Shown here: positions 394-44,739 of the stretch, in pieces | How positions within the stretch are numbered: position 1 is the stretch's first letter | Layout: each line of letters starts with the position of its first letter | Assembly (NCBI RefSeq): GCF_964036645.1 | Contig: NZ_OZ038525.1 | Coordinates: forward strand, 558,001 to 622,000 | Source of the DNA: Tenacibaculum sp. 190524A02b | Lineage (GTDB): Bacteria > Bacteroidota > Bacteroidia > Flavobacteriales > Flavobacteriaceae | Length of the DNA stretch: 64,000 nt | Reading direction: 5' to 3' | Position numbers and translations under genes: made by a program | The notes under the pieces: model-generated | Seen by the model: the letters and a program-made list of their open reading frames with translations, nothing else | Databases searched by the model: none | Told to the model about the DNA's origin: nothing

Positions 394-2457
394 ATGTACT
401 CAGAAATTAAAATAACATTCAATGAAGAATTAAGGATTGGTAGTTTTATTACATTCTTAATAAATAGTCCTACAGGAACAATTCATGTGTTTGAAGAATG
501 GGTGAATTATAGAACAGCATCTAATCAAGTTATGCATGGTAATTCAACATGGAGACTTGGAGAAGGTACAGCTATAAACTTTATAAATTCTTTTAAATTG
601 GATTATGATGCAGCAGGTGCAAATTTCGATATTATTAGAAATGTTAATGAGGTTATTATTCAATCCAAAAGACCAGATATTACCTTTAGTAATGGATTTG
701 CTCAATATGTACCAATCAAGGATGTTAAGAATCCAAATCCTAACCCAGTTCCAGAGGATGTAAATGTTTTATTTGAATACAAAAATTTTACTGGTGATGT
801 ATTTAAAATTAATAAAATAGAGCTTTTAAAGTCAGACACGAAACCTTGTACCCATATAAAATTAAGAGTTGAAACAAATAAAAAGATTAAGAATGTCTAT
901 GGACCAAGATTAACCTATAATTTATCTTTTGATTTTTTTGAATCTGAGTTTTTAAGAGCTACAGGTGCTACACAAAAACTACTAAATGTTGAGTTAGAGG
1001 ATTATGATGGACAACGTGTTAGGGATGCTTTAATTCTGCCTAGTTTATTGAGTGTAGCAAATCTTGATGTTAAAGTCTATAACTCTCCAAATGGAGCAAC
1101 TTTAAATGTTAATGTAGATGAAGCTTTTGGGTTAAATTTAGAATATTCTCTTGATGATGTTAATTGGAAAACATCTAATTTTTATGATAGTTTACCAGCG
1201 GGAACTTATGAAGTCTACGTAAGAGATCAATTTGGGTGTAAAATATCTAAAAAAGTTTTAATTGATGAAATAGGGCAGAAAGAACCATTTTTTTACATTT
1301 CTAAATCTAACTCTATAAGATATGTAGCGTATTCTGTTAACGGAGAATTAACAGATAAAAGAATTGATGAAAATAGGTTTAGCTATGAAGATGATGTGAA
1401 TGAGGTTAATACAGAGTATTATTGTTTTAATAGTAATGATAGAGATAGAACACAATTTAAATCTAATTACTCAAATATAAATGTAAAAGCTGTTTTACAA
1501 GATGGTACAGAAGAGGTTTTATTTGTGACAAAATTAACTGATAATTTATTGATTAAAGATAGTAGAGATGCTAGAATATTTAAATTAGAAGGAGGGAAAG
1601 CTGGAGTATATTTTACAACAGGTAAAAGATATAATTTTGATACAGGCTTGTATACTGGTGATGATTATAAGCTGAATGGAAGTTTGCCAGAGTGGGGGAA
1701 AATAGGTGAATACATTAAGATTGATAATAGTTGGTTTAAAATTGAAAATACTACTATAAGTAGAGATAAAAATGCTGAAGTTTTAATAATTGACTATAAT
1801 TATACAAGTGATGAAGCTATAATCAAAACAGGAACGATTTACAATAGAGAAAATTATGATGTATTTGAATTTGAAGTAAATTTTAAAGATTTTATAGATC
1901 AGGTATTTACCATTGAAATAGAAAATAAAGAAGGAGGGTTACCAACTCTTATTCACAAAAGCGAGAATATAGAAGTAACAAACACAGATGATTTTGTAGA
2001 AATACTATATGCTAATGACACTAATACAGATGTAAACTATAAATCAGGAATATCTCACAAAATATGGATAAGAGTTGAAAGTATAAACGACAAACCAATA
2101 GGTAATGTTAATACACATAAAACCGACACTAAATCAGTTCTTTTAAGTGGAAATGTTTATGAAACTAAAGAAATTGAGTTTGAAGTTTGTACTAGAGGTA
2201 TGATGATTAAACTTTTTAGAGCGTTATTTCATCGAAAACTCTTTATAGATAAGATTCAATATGTACTCAGTGACGTGCCTGAGGTTGAAGGTGCATTAGA
2301 GGAAACAAACCTTTATGTAGTAAAAGCCAAGTTAATTAAATCATCAGAAGTTTATAATTCTAAATCATTCAAAAATAATTCTCCAATTCTAGGCGGAATT
2401 GTCGAGTTACCGAATTTAATTGAAGTAAATAGTGATGGAGGTTTTATTAAGATTTAG
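394..2457 (+). CDS. Large phage tail-associated protein with an Ig-like segment
   Basis: A 687-residue protein starting directly after the stop of the upstream gene. There is no signal peptide or membrane segment. Around residues 225-290 a segment containing LEYSLDDVNW, a PAGTYEVYVRD stretch and a following FGCK motif resembles the SprB/gliding-adhesin type of Ig-like repeat known from flavobacterial surface proteins; this is a resemblance by eye, not a domain hit. The rest is beta-rich and unrecognised. The position between a structural gene and a tail fibre gene, ahead of the lysis genes, fits a tail tip or baseplate protein. It could equally be a receptor-binding component. Confidence 0.55.
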   Translation: MYSEIKITFNEELRIGSFITFLINSPTGTIHVFEEWVNYRTASNQVMHGNSTWRLGEGTAINFINSFKLDYDAAGANFDIIRNVNEVIIQSKRPDITFSNGFAQYVPIKDVKNPNPNPVPEDVNVLFEYKNFTGDVFKINKIELLKSDTKPCTHIKLRVETNKKIKNVYGPRLTYNLSFDFFESEFLRATGATQKLLNVELEDYDGQRVRDALILPSLLSVANLDVKVYNSPNGATLNVNVDEAFGLNLEYSLDDVNWKTSNFYDSLPAGTYEVYVRDQFGCKISKKVLIDEIGQKEPFFYISKSNSIRYVAYSVNGELTDKRIDENRFSYEDDVNEVNTEYYCFNSNDRDRTQFKSNYSNINVKAVLQDGTEEVLFVTKLTDNLLIKDSRDARIFKLEGGKAGVYFTTGKRYNFDTGLYTGDDYKLNGSLPEWGKIGEYIKIDNSWFKIENTTISRDKNAEVLIIDYNYTSDEAIIKTGTIYNRENYDVFEFEVNFKDFIDQVFTIEIENKEGGLPTLIHKSENIEVTNTDDFVEILYANDTNTDVNYKSGISHKIWIRVESINDKPIGNVNTHKTDTKSVLLSGNVYETKEIEFEVCTRGMMIKLFRALFHRKLFIDKIQYVLSDVPEVEGALEETNLYVVKAKLIKSSEVYNSKSFKNNSPILGGIVELPNLIEVNSDGGFIKI

Positions 2458-7084: not shown

Positions 7085-7175
7085 TTCATTGAGAAGTATA
7101 AGGGGAAAAAATGTTGGGGAGACTTCTCAATAATATTGGTTATATGTTTTTAAAACCTAGTACTAGGAGTTTTTA
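7085..7175 (+). ncRNA. Candidate short RNA 2 with GGGG-loop hairpin
   Basis: A TATAATTT box at 7072-7079 precedes a perfect 10-bp stem (7088-7097 / 7122-7131, ATTGAGAAGT with ACTTCTCAAT). Its 24-base loop carries AGGGGA and TGGGGA. About 25 bases later CCTAG-TA-CTAGG (7156-7167) and a T run look like a terminator. No coding potential is seen. The call is inferred from layout. Confidence 0.35.
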
Positions 7176-24945: not shown

Positions 24946-25429
24946 GAAATTAGTTTATAAACCTCTTTGACTGCTAAGTTCTTTATTGGTTTAAAAACGT
25001 CTTGTTAAAGCTATGTTAAATTAAGTTTATTATCTAGTTTGACTTAATAAAAAAGTATCCGTTTTATTAATTATATAGCTTATTATTTTTCATTAGGAAA
25101 TAAAAACGTTTAGTTAGGAAATAAAAATATTTTTTGATTTTGTATAGTTTTTACATTTGAAGAATTATTTAAATTTTTTAGGTAGAGTAAGTTAGTGGCT
25201 ATTGTTGTTTTCTAAGATTAATTTAAAGAGTGTAATAACAACTATTTTACCTTCATTTTCAAAGGCTATTTTTTCGGAAACATTACTAAGTTGAAACTAA
25301 ACTGTATGTATAAATTAATACTTCGGTTTAGGTGTTACATGTATTGTAAATGTTAAAGGAGGAAACTGAAAATCCTTATTAAAAGAGTAGGTATTATATG
25401 ATTTTTAAATAAAAAACAATCTTTAAAAG
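24946..25429. other. Intergenic region between divergent outer-membrane and T9SS genes
   Basis: No gene. It holds two exact copies of TTAGGAAATAAAAA (25093-25106 and 25114-25127, repeat period 21 bp) and a TACATTTG box (25152-25159). The rest is AT-rich without recognisable structure. Confidence 0.55.
25093..25127. promoter_or_regulatory. Candidate operator: 14-bp direct repeats, 21-bp period
   Basis: TTAGGAAATAAAAA occurs twice, two helical turns apart. Direct repeats on one DNA face are typical for LytTR- or AraC-type regulators. It is upstream of the minus-strand receptor gene by about 150 bp and of the plus-strand gene by 300 bp. No cognate regulator is adjacent. Confidence 0.4.
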
Positions 25430-34278: not shown

Positions 34279-34298
34279 AAGTATTTTAATATATTAAA

Positions 34299-34332
34299 AA
34301 AGAGGTTGTTTTACTTTTAAACAACCTCTTTT
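34299..34332 (+). terminator. Terminator of carB
   Basis: AAAAAAGAGGTTGTTT pairs with AAACAACCTCTTTTTT (about 34298-34331), strong stem with T run. Confidence 0.85.
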
Positions 34333-34595
34333 TTGTTTGTATTTTCTTCCATCTGTAATTTCAAATAATTACTAATATAATTTCTGTTTATGTTAAAGAA
34401 AATAACAAATTATGGGTAAGCGGCGTTTTCAAAGTAAAAAAGCTTGAATTTTTATAGCTATTTTTATATGCTTTACAGTTAAAGTAAAGAAATAATAACA
34501 GTAAATTTAATAAGCTTTTTAATCTGGTATGGTTAGTAATATCTTTAAAAATAGATACTTTTTTATTGTAAAATGGTATTTTATTAACATGTTTT

Positions 34596-34627
34596 TTTGT
34601 TAAAATTAAAAAAATAAACTATATTTG
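34596..34627 (+). promoter_or_regulatory. Promoter of the candidate sRNA at 34632
   Basis: TTTG (34596-34599), 20 bp, TATATTTG (34620-34627). Full Bacteroidetes-type promoter in a region with no gene on this strand downstream. Confidence 0.65.
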
Positions 34628-34631
34628 AGAT

Positions 34632-34739
34632 CTAAGCAAAATAATTAGGGGTATTTTGCATAGCGTATGATATGTTTCAAATAAGGGGATGAAACGTATA
34701 GGAATTCCAATCTTCGAGAGAAAAGATTGGAATTTTTTT
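34632..34739 (+). ncRNA. Candidate small RNA with two AGGGG-loop hairpins
   Basis: A stand-alone unit of ~108 nt between carB (already terminated at 34300) and convergent lysA. It has a promoter (34596-34627); hairpin 1 GCAAAATA/TATTTTGC (34636-34643, 34652-34659) with loop ATTAGGGG; hairpin 2 with a 10-bp stem (34670-34679, 34690-34699, one G-T pair) and loop AATAAGGGGA; and a 12-bp terminator stem AATTCCAATCTT/AAGATTGGAATT (34703-34714, 34723-34734) with a T run. Both loops present AGGGG. No small ORF fits. It should be compared with the Flavo-1 RNA family; I cannot confirm membership. Confidence 0.65.
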
Positions 34740-34740
34740 A

Positions 34741-35946
34741 TTAGATTGTAACTTGTTCTTGGTTCCTTAAAATATCGTCAAACGTTTCTCTTTTTCTAAT
34801 TAAGTAGTCTTTACCTTTGTAAAGCATAACTTCTGCAGGTTTAAACCTTGAATTGTAGTTGGAAGCCATAGAGTAACAATAAGCGCCAGCATTGTGAAAA
34901 CATAAAATATCACCTTCAGCTATTTCTGAAATTCTTCTATTAGAACCAAAAGTGTCAGTTTCACAAATATACCCTACTACACTATAAAAACGTTCTCTTC
35001 CTTTTGGATTAGAAATGTTTTCAATTTCATGGTAAGAGTTGTAAAACATTGGTCTAATTAAGTGATTTAAACCACTATCAATACCAGCAAAGACAGTTGA
35101 GGTGGTTTGCTTGATAACGTTTACTTTTGCTAAGAAATAACCAGACTGACTAACTAAAAATTTACCGGGTTCAAACATTAGCGTAACGTCTTTACCGTAA
35201 TTTTTACAGAATTCATTAAATCTGGTAGATAGTTTTTTACCAAGTTCATCAATATTAGTTGAAATATCATCTTTTTTATAAGGAACTTTAAAGCCGCTTC
35301 CAAAATCTATAAAATCAATATTTTTAAATTGCTTAGCTACTTCAAATAATATTTCGGTGGCACGCAAAAAAGTATCTATATCTAAAATATCTGAGCCTGT
35401 ATGCATATGTATTCCATTAATTCGCATACCAGTATTTTCAACAACTCTTTTAATATGTGGTACTTGGTGTATTGAAATACCAAATTTAGAATCTATATGT
35501 CCAACAGATATTTTACTGTTGCCTCCAGCCATAACATGTGGATTGATACGGATACAAACAGGGATTTCTGGGTGCTTTTGTCCAAATAGTTCAAGTATAG
35601 ATAAATTATCAATGTTAATTTGAACACCTAATTTAGCTACTTCTTCAATCTCTTGCAAAGAAACACCGTTTGGGGTATAAATAATATTCTTTGGCTCAAA
35701 TCCAGCAAGTAAGCCAAGTTTGACTTCTTGAATAGAAACGGTATCTAATCCACTTTTAAGAGAATTAAAAACCTTTAAGATGTTAATGTTAGATAATGCT
35801 TTGGTAGCGTAATTAATTTTTACATTTTTAACCTTAGAAAAAGCATTGGTGATTTTCTTATATTGATTAATAATCACATCTGTATCATAAACATACAAAG
35901 GACACCCATAAGTGTCTGCCAACTTTAATAAGTCTTTTCTATTCAT
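34741..35946 (-). CDS. lysA: Diaminopimelate decarboxylase
   Basis: 401 residues of the fold-type III PLP decarboxylases. The PLP lysine is in KINYATKALSN (near 48). Later motifs are HIDSKFGI, GIHMHTGSDI, FIDFGSGF (glycine loop), EPGKFLV, and near the end CETDTFG with Cys and GAYCYSMASNYNSR, all as in LysA. Last step of lysine synthesis from meso-diaminopimelate, cytoplasmic. Single gene, convergent with the sRNA candidate, whose terminator ends at its stop codon. Confidence 0.93.
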   Translation of the reverse strand: MNRKDLLKLADTYGCPLYVYDTDVIINQYKKITNAFSKVKNVKINYATKALSNINILKVFNSLKSGLDTVSIQEVKLGLLAGFEPKNIIYTPNGVSLQEIEEVAKLGVQINIDNLSILELFGQKHPEIPVCIRINPHVMAGGNSKISVGHIDSKFGISIHQVPHIKRVVENTGMRINGIHMHTGSDILDIDTFLRATEILFEVAKQFKNIDFIDFGSGFKVPYKKDDISTNIDELGKKLSTRFNEFCKNYGKDVTLMFEPGKFLVSQSGYFLAKVNVIKQTTSTVFAGIDSGLNHLIRPMFYNSYHEIENISNPKGRERFYSVVGYICETDTFGSNRRISEIAEGDILCFHNAGAYCYSMASNYNSRFKPAEVMLYKGKDYLIRKRETFDDILRNQEQVTI

Positions 35947-43012: not shown

Positions 43013-43335
43013 AAATCCATTTTACAATCTATAAAAAAACCCGTTGTTTTACAACGGGTTTTTTGTTGTTTTGAAAAGTTTTCAAAAAACATTAGCGATT
43101 TCTGTTTTTTTATAAAAAAAATGATTAAATTTATAAGTAGCTGCTAACCAATATCTTTGGAATATTATGCTGAAAAGAATCCTTGTATTAATTTTTAACC
43201 AGTTTTGACTTAATGAAAAATAAACAATAACGAAAAATACTAGTTAGAATTTTACTCGTTTATCTTGTCTGAAAATATAAAGTTTAAAAGTTTCATCCCC
43301 CCATCCCCCCAGTTTAACTTAAAAACTTATATCTA
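43013..43335. other. Intergenic region with a tandem C-rich octamer
   Basis: Apart from the rpsA terminator the 323 bp hold a TATCTTTG box (43152-43159) and, 25 bp before the next gene, two adjacent copies of ATCCCCCC (43295-43302, 43303-43310). On the minus strand this is a G-rich tract. No gene or RNA is seen. Confidence 0.5.
43038..43066 (+). terminator. Terminator of rpsA
   Basis: AACCCGTTGT / ACAACGGGTT (43039-43048, 43051-43060) with T run. Confidence 0.85.
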
Positions 43336-44739
43336 ATGAAAAGAGCAAGAAATTTATTTGTGATACTGTTAATTTTGTGCAGTATCCAGATTTTCCCCCA
43401 AGGAGAAATTCAACAGTTGTTAGAAGAAGAAAAGCTAAAATTAAATGAAGTAGAAGATTATGTCAGTAAAAATTTTATTTCCTTACCTAGGTGTATTGAA
43501 TCTAAAAATTATATTGACAATGGAAAAGGGCTAGGACTTAATCAAAGTCATATACCTATTGATAATGGTGAAATTTACGTTTTTAACATTTATTTTCACA
43601 TTTTAAATGAAAACGGAGGCTCTAGGTCATTTCCAATTTCAGAAGATGATATTCAAGAAGCTGTTGCTATTTTGAATAAAACATTTAATCCGTTCAAGAT
43701 ATTTTTTAAATATCAAGGACATGGAAATATAGATAGCACATGGCGTTCTGTAGTGTACTTAAGAGGAAGAAGAACTTTTGGTCAATTAGTAGATTATGCC
43801 AAAAGTCTTAATGTTTATAAGGAGAATAGTTTAAACATCTTCATAGCTTCAACTATCCGTTATAGCCAATATGATGATTCACCTCTTGTTGGGATTGCAG
43901 ATAAACCAGGTACCAACTCAGTTATAGAAGATGAATACTTATTAACTTCTAGTTTACCTCATGAGGTTGCTCATAATTTTCTATTACATCATACACATTA
44001 TAGGTCAACAAGTGAAAATTGTGATTTGGTTGTTCAGAATGATTTGGTAGATGACACAAGGCCTTCTCTAATATACAAAGCTGCTGAAATAGGAAGTGAT
44101 TGTATAACATATACAGGGAATAAATCAAAAACTAAATGCGGAATTGATTATTCGTATTTACCAACCAATAATTTTATGAGTGCAAATATTTTGCCTTGTA
44201 GATCTCTTAAGAATGCGATGTTTACAAAAGGTCAAGGTGATAGAATGAGAAAAATAATAAAAGAAAGAATGCAGACAGACTATAATAGAGTTTTAGGGAC
44301 AGTTGAAAGTCTTTATGAACCATATAATAAGCGAAAAAATCAGACTTTTATGAGTATAAAGGGGAATACTTTAAAGTATCAAAAAGGATTTGACTATCAG
44401 TTTGTAGATTGTAATGATTATAATACGATTTTTGAGTCCTATTCATCTAAAGAGTTAGTTCAGAATCATCCATATTATACAGCTGTAAAAATATTGCAAT
44501 TATCAAAAGAAAAAGCATATAACTGTAATTTTCCAGAGAATAAAAAATATGTTTCAGGAGTCGTGTTGAGTTTTGGTGCTACAATTTCTAATCATTATAA
44601 GTTAAAAGATTTAAGTGAAGTTGAACTGTATAACCCAACAATGATTATGAAAAACCTCCCTAAAGGGTTCAACCTAGTAAAAACTGTTTGTATTGAAGGT
44701 AAAGAAGAAAAAAAGTTAGTGTATAAACTAGATAATTAA
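43336..44739 (+). CDS. Secreted metzincin-like zinc metallopeptidase
   Basis: 467 residues with signal peptide (about 1-20). The zinc site HEVAHNFLLHH (His209, Glu210, His213, His219) has the HExxHxxxxxH spacing of metzincins, but Leu216 takes the place of the usual Gly. NNFMSAN about 55 residues later is the probable Met-turn. General layout (VNIYFHIL..., ISEDDIQEAVAILN, a zinc site around 210) resembles the M43 pappalysin-like family common in flavobacteria. No type IX sorting domain is visible, so it may stay periplasmic. Terminator follows at 44767-44793. Confidence 0.7.
   Translation: MKRARNLFVILLILCSIQIFPQGEIQQLLEEEKLKLNEVEDYVSKNFISLPRCIESKNYIDNGKGLGLNQSHIPIDNGEIYVFNIYFHILNENGGSRSFPISEDDIQEAVAILNKTFNPFKIFFKYQGHGNIDSTWRSVVYLRGRRTFGQLVDYAKSLNVYKENSLNIFIASTIRYSQYDDSPLVGIADKPGTNSVIEDEYLLTSSLPHEVAHNFLLHHTHYRSTSENCDLVVQNDLVDDTRPSLIYKAAEIGSDCITYTGNKSKTKCGIDYSYLPTNNFMSANILPCRSLKNAMFTKGQGDRMRKIIKERMQTDYNRVLGTVESLYEPYNKRKNQTFMSIKGNTLKYQKGFDYQFVDCNDYNTIFESYSSKELVQNHPYYTAVKILQLSKEKAYNCNFPENKKYVSGVVLSFGATISNHYKLKDLSEVELYNPTMIMKNLPKGFNLVKTVCIEGKEEKKLVYKLDN

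Follow-up and report, generated by a model that had tools for sequence, protein, structure and literature searches.

LhrC1-5 of Listeria monocytogenes (RF00616) are multicopy sRNAs with a short repeated loop motif that pair with a surface-protein mRNA ahead of its start codon, and the five copies are described as needing the regulator LisR (PMC4132741). sX13 of Xanthomonas, which we compare by its description, is a single structured sRNA that acts via C-rich loops on four-letter homopolymer target motifs (GGGG) near translation starts (PMC3771888). Loop-to-leader pairing is also described for GsrN of Caulobacter, where experiments place a C-rich loop on a G-tract leader and katG is activated, and where a G-rich loop is predicted in Rhizobiaceae homologues (PMC5869019). 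Within the phylum of the genome studied here, the FopS family of Bacteroides, described together with RbpB, comprises multicopy paralogous sRNAs with a single-stranded 5′ seed followed by a terminator (PMC11697453). Rfp18 of Flavobacterium psychrophilum, again set beside our RNA by its description, is a strongly structured flavobacterial sRNA that affects metalloprotease mRNAs, predictedly via a stem-loop (PMC9723704). Flavo-1 (RF01705) is a non-coding RNA motif reported from Bacteroidetes (PMC2864571), and a published account lists Tenacibaculum with other organisms in which sRNAs had yet to be studied (PMC9029176).

Here we describe a lysA-linked family of predicted AGGGG-loop RNAs in Tenacibaculum that resembles, by analogy, LhrC and sX13 with the letters exchanged. 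LhrC is described with UCCC motifs and a G-rich leader (PMC4132741), whereas the Tenacibaculum family has AGGGG loops and C-rich candidate leaders, and the two have no sequence relation. Membership of the FopS family was rejected, as the fold and the predicted start of the Tenacibaculum RNA place a hairpin, rather than a single-stranded seed, at the 5′ end.

The window, that is, the whole stretch of 64,000 nucleotides that was analysed, contains one member of this family, lying between carB and lysA. Its parts, its neighbours and a candidate target site are as follows.

34295-34335, plus strand: terminator behind carB (terminator scan), separating the unit from carB
34596-34599, plus strand: TTTG, the upstream element of the promoter, separated from the -7 box by 20 bp, read from the sequence
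34620-34627, plus strand: -7 box TATATTTG, which fits the flavobacterial TAnnTTTG
34632-34663, plus strand: hairpin 1, 5′-terminal in the predicted RNA, loop ATTAGGGG with AGGGG at 34647-34651 (fold and sequence)
34670-34699, plus strand: hairpin 2, 10 bp, loop AATAAGGGGA with AGGGG at 34684-34688 (fold and sequence)
34703-34739, plus strand: intrinsic terminator, a 12-bp stem (34703-34734) and a T run to 34739, adjoining the lysA stop codon
34741-35946, minus strand: lysA (diaminopimelate decarboxylase, named as in the preliminary description), convergent with the unit and the conserved neighbour of the sRNA family
43297-43310, plus strand: candidate target site formed by two C6 tracts, 26-39 nt upstream of the start codon of 43336-44739

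The preliminary description of this DNA had proposed a complete sRNA unit at 34596-34739, and its anatomy holds: the promoter, the twin AGGGG-loop hairpins of 8 and 10 bp and the 12-bp terminator with its T run are all present, and the carB terminator that it placed upstream is real. It had also held that the region is free of plus-strand protein genes, in agreement with which we find no ORF of at least 50 aa between carB and lysA, and no open stretch of more than 26 codons between stops in three frames of 34591-34760. The flavobacterial -7 box reads TAnnTTTG and occupies positions -12 to -5 (PMC9723704); because TTTG, the 20-bp spacing and TATATTTG fit this arrangement, the RNA is predicted to start at about 34632, the first base of hairpin 1. 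The same promoter region can also be read as TTGTTA-17-TATATT in a sigma-70-type scan (7 sites found against 4.4 in shuffles). The 8-bp core stem of hairpin 1 is extensible, and the terminator at 34703-34739 is absent from the terminator-scan list, yet plain in both the sequence and the fold.

The fold of 34629-34742 has a z-score of -5.6, and none of 200 shuffles was as stable. When we scanned for pairs of AGGGG-loop hairpins no more than 25 nt apart, the 64-kb window gave a single match, namely the 34596-34739 unit with its terminator behind, and there was none in 400 kb of each of three genomes (its own and two others of the genus) or in 40 order-1 Markov windows. Single AGGGG hairpins, by comparison, are at chance level (2 in the window vs 2.4 per Markov window). 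We take 34632-34739 to be very probably a real sRNA gene.

Flavo-1 had been put forward as the known family to be compared first, and membership is not borne out: there is no match to RF01705 at E<=10 in 34280-34760, none at the gathering threshold in the whole window, and, at that threshold, no Rfam match, Flavo-1 included, at 10 loci with family copies. Seventeen sub-threshold Rfam matches at E<=10 fall in 34280-34760, among them terminators and AT-rich stretches. LhrC (RF00616), with a sole match on the minus strand at 34.2 bits against a gathering threshold of 110, and BTnc231 (RF04180), with 18.3 bits against 80.4 (E 0.23), were both rejected. The lysA-linked AGGGG-loop RNA is a separate, apparently undescribed family, and no account of a lysA-linked twin-loop RNA was found in searches of open-licence PMC papers. 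Elsewhere in the window, DUF805b RNA (RF02914) is the only Rfam match at gathering (25356-25393, plus strand; 46.4 bits vs 35.6), and a hairpin TTGAGAAGT...ACTTCTCAA at about 7088-7131 on the plus strand has a loop with two GGGG runs, which are two CCCC runs on the other strand.

The unit had further been called an orphan, which is wrong at the level of the genus, since in relatives there is a multicopy family around lysA. LysA matches loci titled Tenacibaculum at 85-96%, which groups the genome with Tenacibaculum. A nucleotide search with the unit gave matches in 5 of 59 relatives, all short pieces and none full-length, four of these relatives matching the promoter only; among 166 genus genomes, 55 had a match (the own genome included), again in short pieces except in the own genome, which alone had a full-length one. 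The DNA 3′ of lysA in named relatives has the same layout with other stems: a -7 box is followed by a 5′ hairpin whose loop has AGGGG, in many cases by another such hairpin, and by a terminator. More copies lie 5′ of lysA, sometimes in tandem.

We sampled 60 lysA loci, chosen from the top by identity among 152 genus genomes with a match, and found an AGGGG-loop hairpin within 160 nt 3′ of lysA at 37 of the 60 and within 450 nt 5′ of lysA at 27. Control loops were rarer at the same loci (3′ and 5′ of lysA, respectively): GGAGG at 1 and 9, GGGAG at 4 and 5, TGGGG at 3 and 1, the complement CCCCT at 0 and 0, and GAGGG, which overlaps GAGGGG loops, at 19 and 2. The genomes nearest to that of the window (G002, G177 and G155) have one AGGGG hairpin in the slot 3′ of lysA and the window genome (G000) has two. 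Loci titled T. finnmarkense, T. dicentrarchi and T. piscium show no clear copy 3′ of lysA, and some species have lost the copy in this slot. The window unit shares with the family the slot 3′ of lysA, AGGGG-loop hairpins, a promoter box before hairpin 1 and a terminator, and looks like one diverged copy of it.

Poor conservation of stems and loops, which the preliminary description held would count against the RNA, is found for the raw stem sequence by nucleotide search, but the pairing of the stems and the loop core are kept. Pairing was assessed with an arm-swap test rather than by counting columns, because alignments A1 and A6 misplaced hairpin 2; each 5′ arm was joined to 3′ arms taken from other species within its class, with 10000 permutations per class that treat species as independent (kinship ignored). 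For hairpin 1 of the 3′-slot copies the stem score was 18.9 for own arms and 13.3 for swapped arms (14 arm pairs less than 85% identical), and for hairpin 2 it was 21.2 and 12.9 (9 such pairs), with no permutation reaching the own value in either case. The 5′-side copies gave 19.3 against 16.7 for hairpin 1 (13 such pairs; 3 of 10000 permutations reach the own value) and 21.8 against 18.9 for hairpin 2 (16 such pairs; 0 of 10000). Thus, the stem arms vary between species and still pair with their own partners. With stems that change together and a loop core that stays constant, the RNA structure of the lysA-linked family is conserved.

Covariance model R1, built from nine 5′-side copies with the window copy left out, matched 27 of the 166 genus genomes at E<=0.05, one of which (G077) has five tandem copies. 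Neither R1 nor a wider model, R2, built from 46 copies, found the window copy in searches of its own genome; given a 201-base stretch with the window copy, R1 scored 30.4 bits, with hairpin 2 and the terminator aligned where the model has hairpins 1 and 2. Since both models miss the window copy in its own genome and the upstream element described below is lacking from it, it is assigned to the family by slot, layout and loops. Among 397 genomes of the taxonomic family, sampled from a larger group, R2 gave 13 matches at E<=0.5 (best 0.06), none convincing: the match in the own genome is not the 34596-34739 unit, and of the other twelve, nine are listed without two AGGGG cores and three have no [AG]GGG in the stretch examined. 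Because R2 finds nothing convincing there, the RNA is unseen outside the genus, where divergent members would be missed in the same way as the window copy, and the lysA-linked family is so far known only from the Tenacibaculum genus.

Three other candidates in the own genome were rejected, one being a single hairpin behind an ORF (L159), one lying within a coding stretch (L160) and one having AAGGGG repeats without the layout of the unit (L256). As a separate observation, L256 (G000:C1:150582-150655) and L262, L263 and L264, from the own and neighbouring genomes, carry apparently intergenic AAGGGGAA repeats, which in L262 and L263 stand directly behind a hairpin.

Most family copies have an element like AAAGGNGNTTTTCCT, of the AGG-N7-CCT type, roughly 25 nt upstream of the -7 box, and in some copies this element is an ACAGG-N6-CCTGT dyad. 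An element score of at least 12 of 16 is reached by 31 of the 41 units listed (7 of the other 10 being cut by the end of the locus) and by 148 of 3000 random 110-nt stretches of the window. The AAAGGNGNTTTTCCT-like element is not found at the window copy, which scores 11 of 16 (14% of random stretches do at least as well); the 16 relatives chosen for comparison score 12-15. Since a score of 11 lies within the background, the window copy is probably outside the control that the upstream element would provide. Across the 166 genomes the element is not enriched away from family copies: AAGGNGNTTTTCCT-N-ATTTG matches in 22 genomes against 15 for the reversed pattern, and 11 of the 22 matches are at family copies, so the remaining 11 are at chance level. 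In species of the genus, a AAGGNGNTTTTCCT-like element also lies, in intergenic DNA, before two related proteins without a Pfam family (L169 and L170, near 1500-2200) and before L171; because non-copy matches do not exceed the reversed pattern, the element at L169 and L170 may be there by chance.

As candidate targets we sought CCCCTTA within 30 nt of ATGAA in 12 genomes with family copies. CCCCTTA-N-ATGAA showed no overall excess in these genomes (117 matches vs 128 for the reversed pattern). Seven of the 20 loci fetched (L276-L280, L284 and L287) were dropped because the site fell within an open frame or had no sizeable ORF after it, and L281-L283 and L286 are single-site leaders. A pair of C tracts in front of the AUG was seen repeatedly at two genes, with a spacer that drifts at one of them: P0001, which encodes a CAP-domain lipoprotein, and P0002, which encodes a small lipocalin-like exported protein with a DUF4923 match below the curated cut-off. 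At a further locus (L285, near 1430-1520, minus strand), CCCCTTACCCC lies 17 nt before the start codon in two genomes; its product, a 518-aa exported protein that is DsbD-like by eye, is another possible target.

P0001 homologues occur in 43 of the 166 genomes, 30 of which entered our count of C4 runs, and P0002 occurs in 29 of the 166, all of which were counted. For P0001, 22 of 30 genomes have at least two C4 runs no more than 45 nt from the AUG, and for P0002, 24 of 29 do; the counts are 16 of 24 and 15 of 20, respectively, when genomes already matched at the gene in the target search are left out. In samples of three genomes, at least two runs precede 1 of 1063 genes and at least one run precedes 29 of 1063. 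Two C4 runs are present in all 22 P0001 homologues above 59% identity and in none of the 8 below it, a cut seen afterwards. None of 16 further P0001 homologues, nearly all 44-58% identical and one a second copy at 60%, has two C4 runs, and these are probably paralogues for the most part. Because a -7 box stands shortly before the tracts in many orthologues, the tracts fill a leader of roughly 25-35 nt.

In the own genome, the P0002 orthologue (L345; 39% identical, Lipocalin_4) has TTAACCCCCAAATTCCCCAAGAATA before its ATG, with two tracts, and the P0001 homologue (50% identical) has no C tract. The one leader with two C4 runs among the 1063 sampled genes is the site at 43297-43310, in this window. 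The protein encoded by 43336-44739 is secreted-looking, 467 aa long and without a Pfam match, and contains HEVAH, which we take to be a zincin-like motif, making it a possible zinc protease.

The number of tracts goes with the number of loops. Counting genomes as independent, a twin unit beside lysA is accompanied by a two-tract leader in 20 of 20 genomes for P0001 and 23 of 24 for P0002, and a single unit or none in 2 of 8 and 1 of 5, respectively; these counts leave out two P0001 genomes for which no lysA locus was fetched (G011 and G163), and the classes follow cut-offs by which G112 is single though nearly twin, G061 is none though the arm-swap set shows a hairpin, and G072 counts as single because of an unrelated hairpin. 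In the group of closest genomes, G000 has two hairpins and two tracts, and G002, G155 and G177 have one hairpin and one tract. This association fits a two-point clamp, though it reflects few independent events. When loops and targets were swapped between species, own-species pairing was not significantly better (the own value was attained in 844 and 846 of 10000 permutations). Predicted contacts between loops and leader reach -23.6 kcal/mol in G021 and consist of a five-pair core only in the own genome, at -9.5 and -10.0 kcal/mol. Comparison between genomes lends good support to the sRNA unit of the preliminary description, whose repeated AGGGG loops, as suggested there, may pair with C-rich targets.

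We lean towards a mechanism in which a multicopy sRNA pairs with C-tract leaders. On this view, 34632-34739 would be a single, diverged copy belonging to a Tenacibaculum-group family, and its product would be an sRNA of about 108 nt that acts in trans. Each family member would have a promoter, a hairpin at the 5′ end of the RNA, in most cases another one behind it, and an intrinsic terminator, with AGGGG presented in the hairpin loops. We infer that the RNA is transcribed in response to a signal and that, directly before the AUG of mRNAs for exported proteins, its loops pair with the CCCC tracts (typically two) of the short leader, most likely blocking translation initiation, with activation as the alternative. 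Shine-Dalgarno sites are scarce in this phylum. In relatives, a single regulator may act on the copies jointly through the dyad-like element that precedes the -7 box. A more tentative proposal, which we hold to be plausible but a little short of probable, is that this genus-specific, tandemly amplified family acts as a two-point clamp, its two G-rich loops gripping a pair of C tracts that occupy much of the short exported-protein leader, with loop number and site number co-evolving and the copies co-controlled by the upstream element.

A short repeated loop core, variable stems and several copies with a common upstream element would also suit RNAs that titrate an RNA-binding protein of the Csr/Rsm type, with the C-rich leaders unrelated or reached indirectly, and the loop-target swap, not being significant, leans the same way. 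Titrating RNAs of this type carry repeated GGA in hairpin loops. The loops of the family are likewise G-rich and repeated, but their core is AGGGG, some reading AGGGGT, and need not hold GGA; moreover, CsrA was found in none of the 166 genus genomes against 3 of 14 control genomes, and the twin C tracts complement the loops. We therefore consider titration unlikely, though a protein other than CsrA could be the one captured. Somewhat less likely again, the hairpins would form a double-sided structure at the end of lysA or be, in this genome, a functionless copy in decay. The unit does adjoin the lysA stop codon, the window copy is without the upstream element and some species have lost their copy, but both stems and both loop cores are intact, the -7 box stands at the family's place before hairpin 1, the loops are G-rich rather than C-rich and on one strand only, and more copies lie 5′ of lysA and in tandem. 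Mimicry of a Shine-Dalgarno sequence, in which the loops would be bound by the anti-SD sequence of 16S rRNA (CUCCUU), with which AAGGGG can pair with one G-U pair, is highly improbable, since the conserved core is GGGG and not GGAGG: of the 60 loci, only 1 and 9 have hairpins with GGAGG in the loop, and 37 and 27 have AGGGG.

Few sRNA families have been described for marine flavobacteria, and the lysA-linked family bears on the question of how sRNAs find their targets in bacteria that mostly lack Shine-Dalgarno sites. If pairing with C-tract leaders takes the form of a two-point clamp, the family would invert, letter for letter, the C-rich-loop sRNAs known from other phyla, and would do so in a phylum where Shine-Dalgarno sequences are hardly used. 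The repeated loop seeds and the repeated matching sites in mRNAs make such pairing directly testable, and the related species provide a natural series of one-hairpin and two-hairpin copies.
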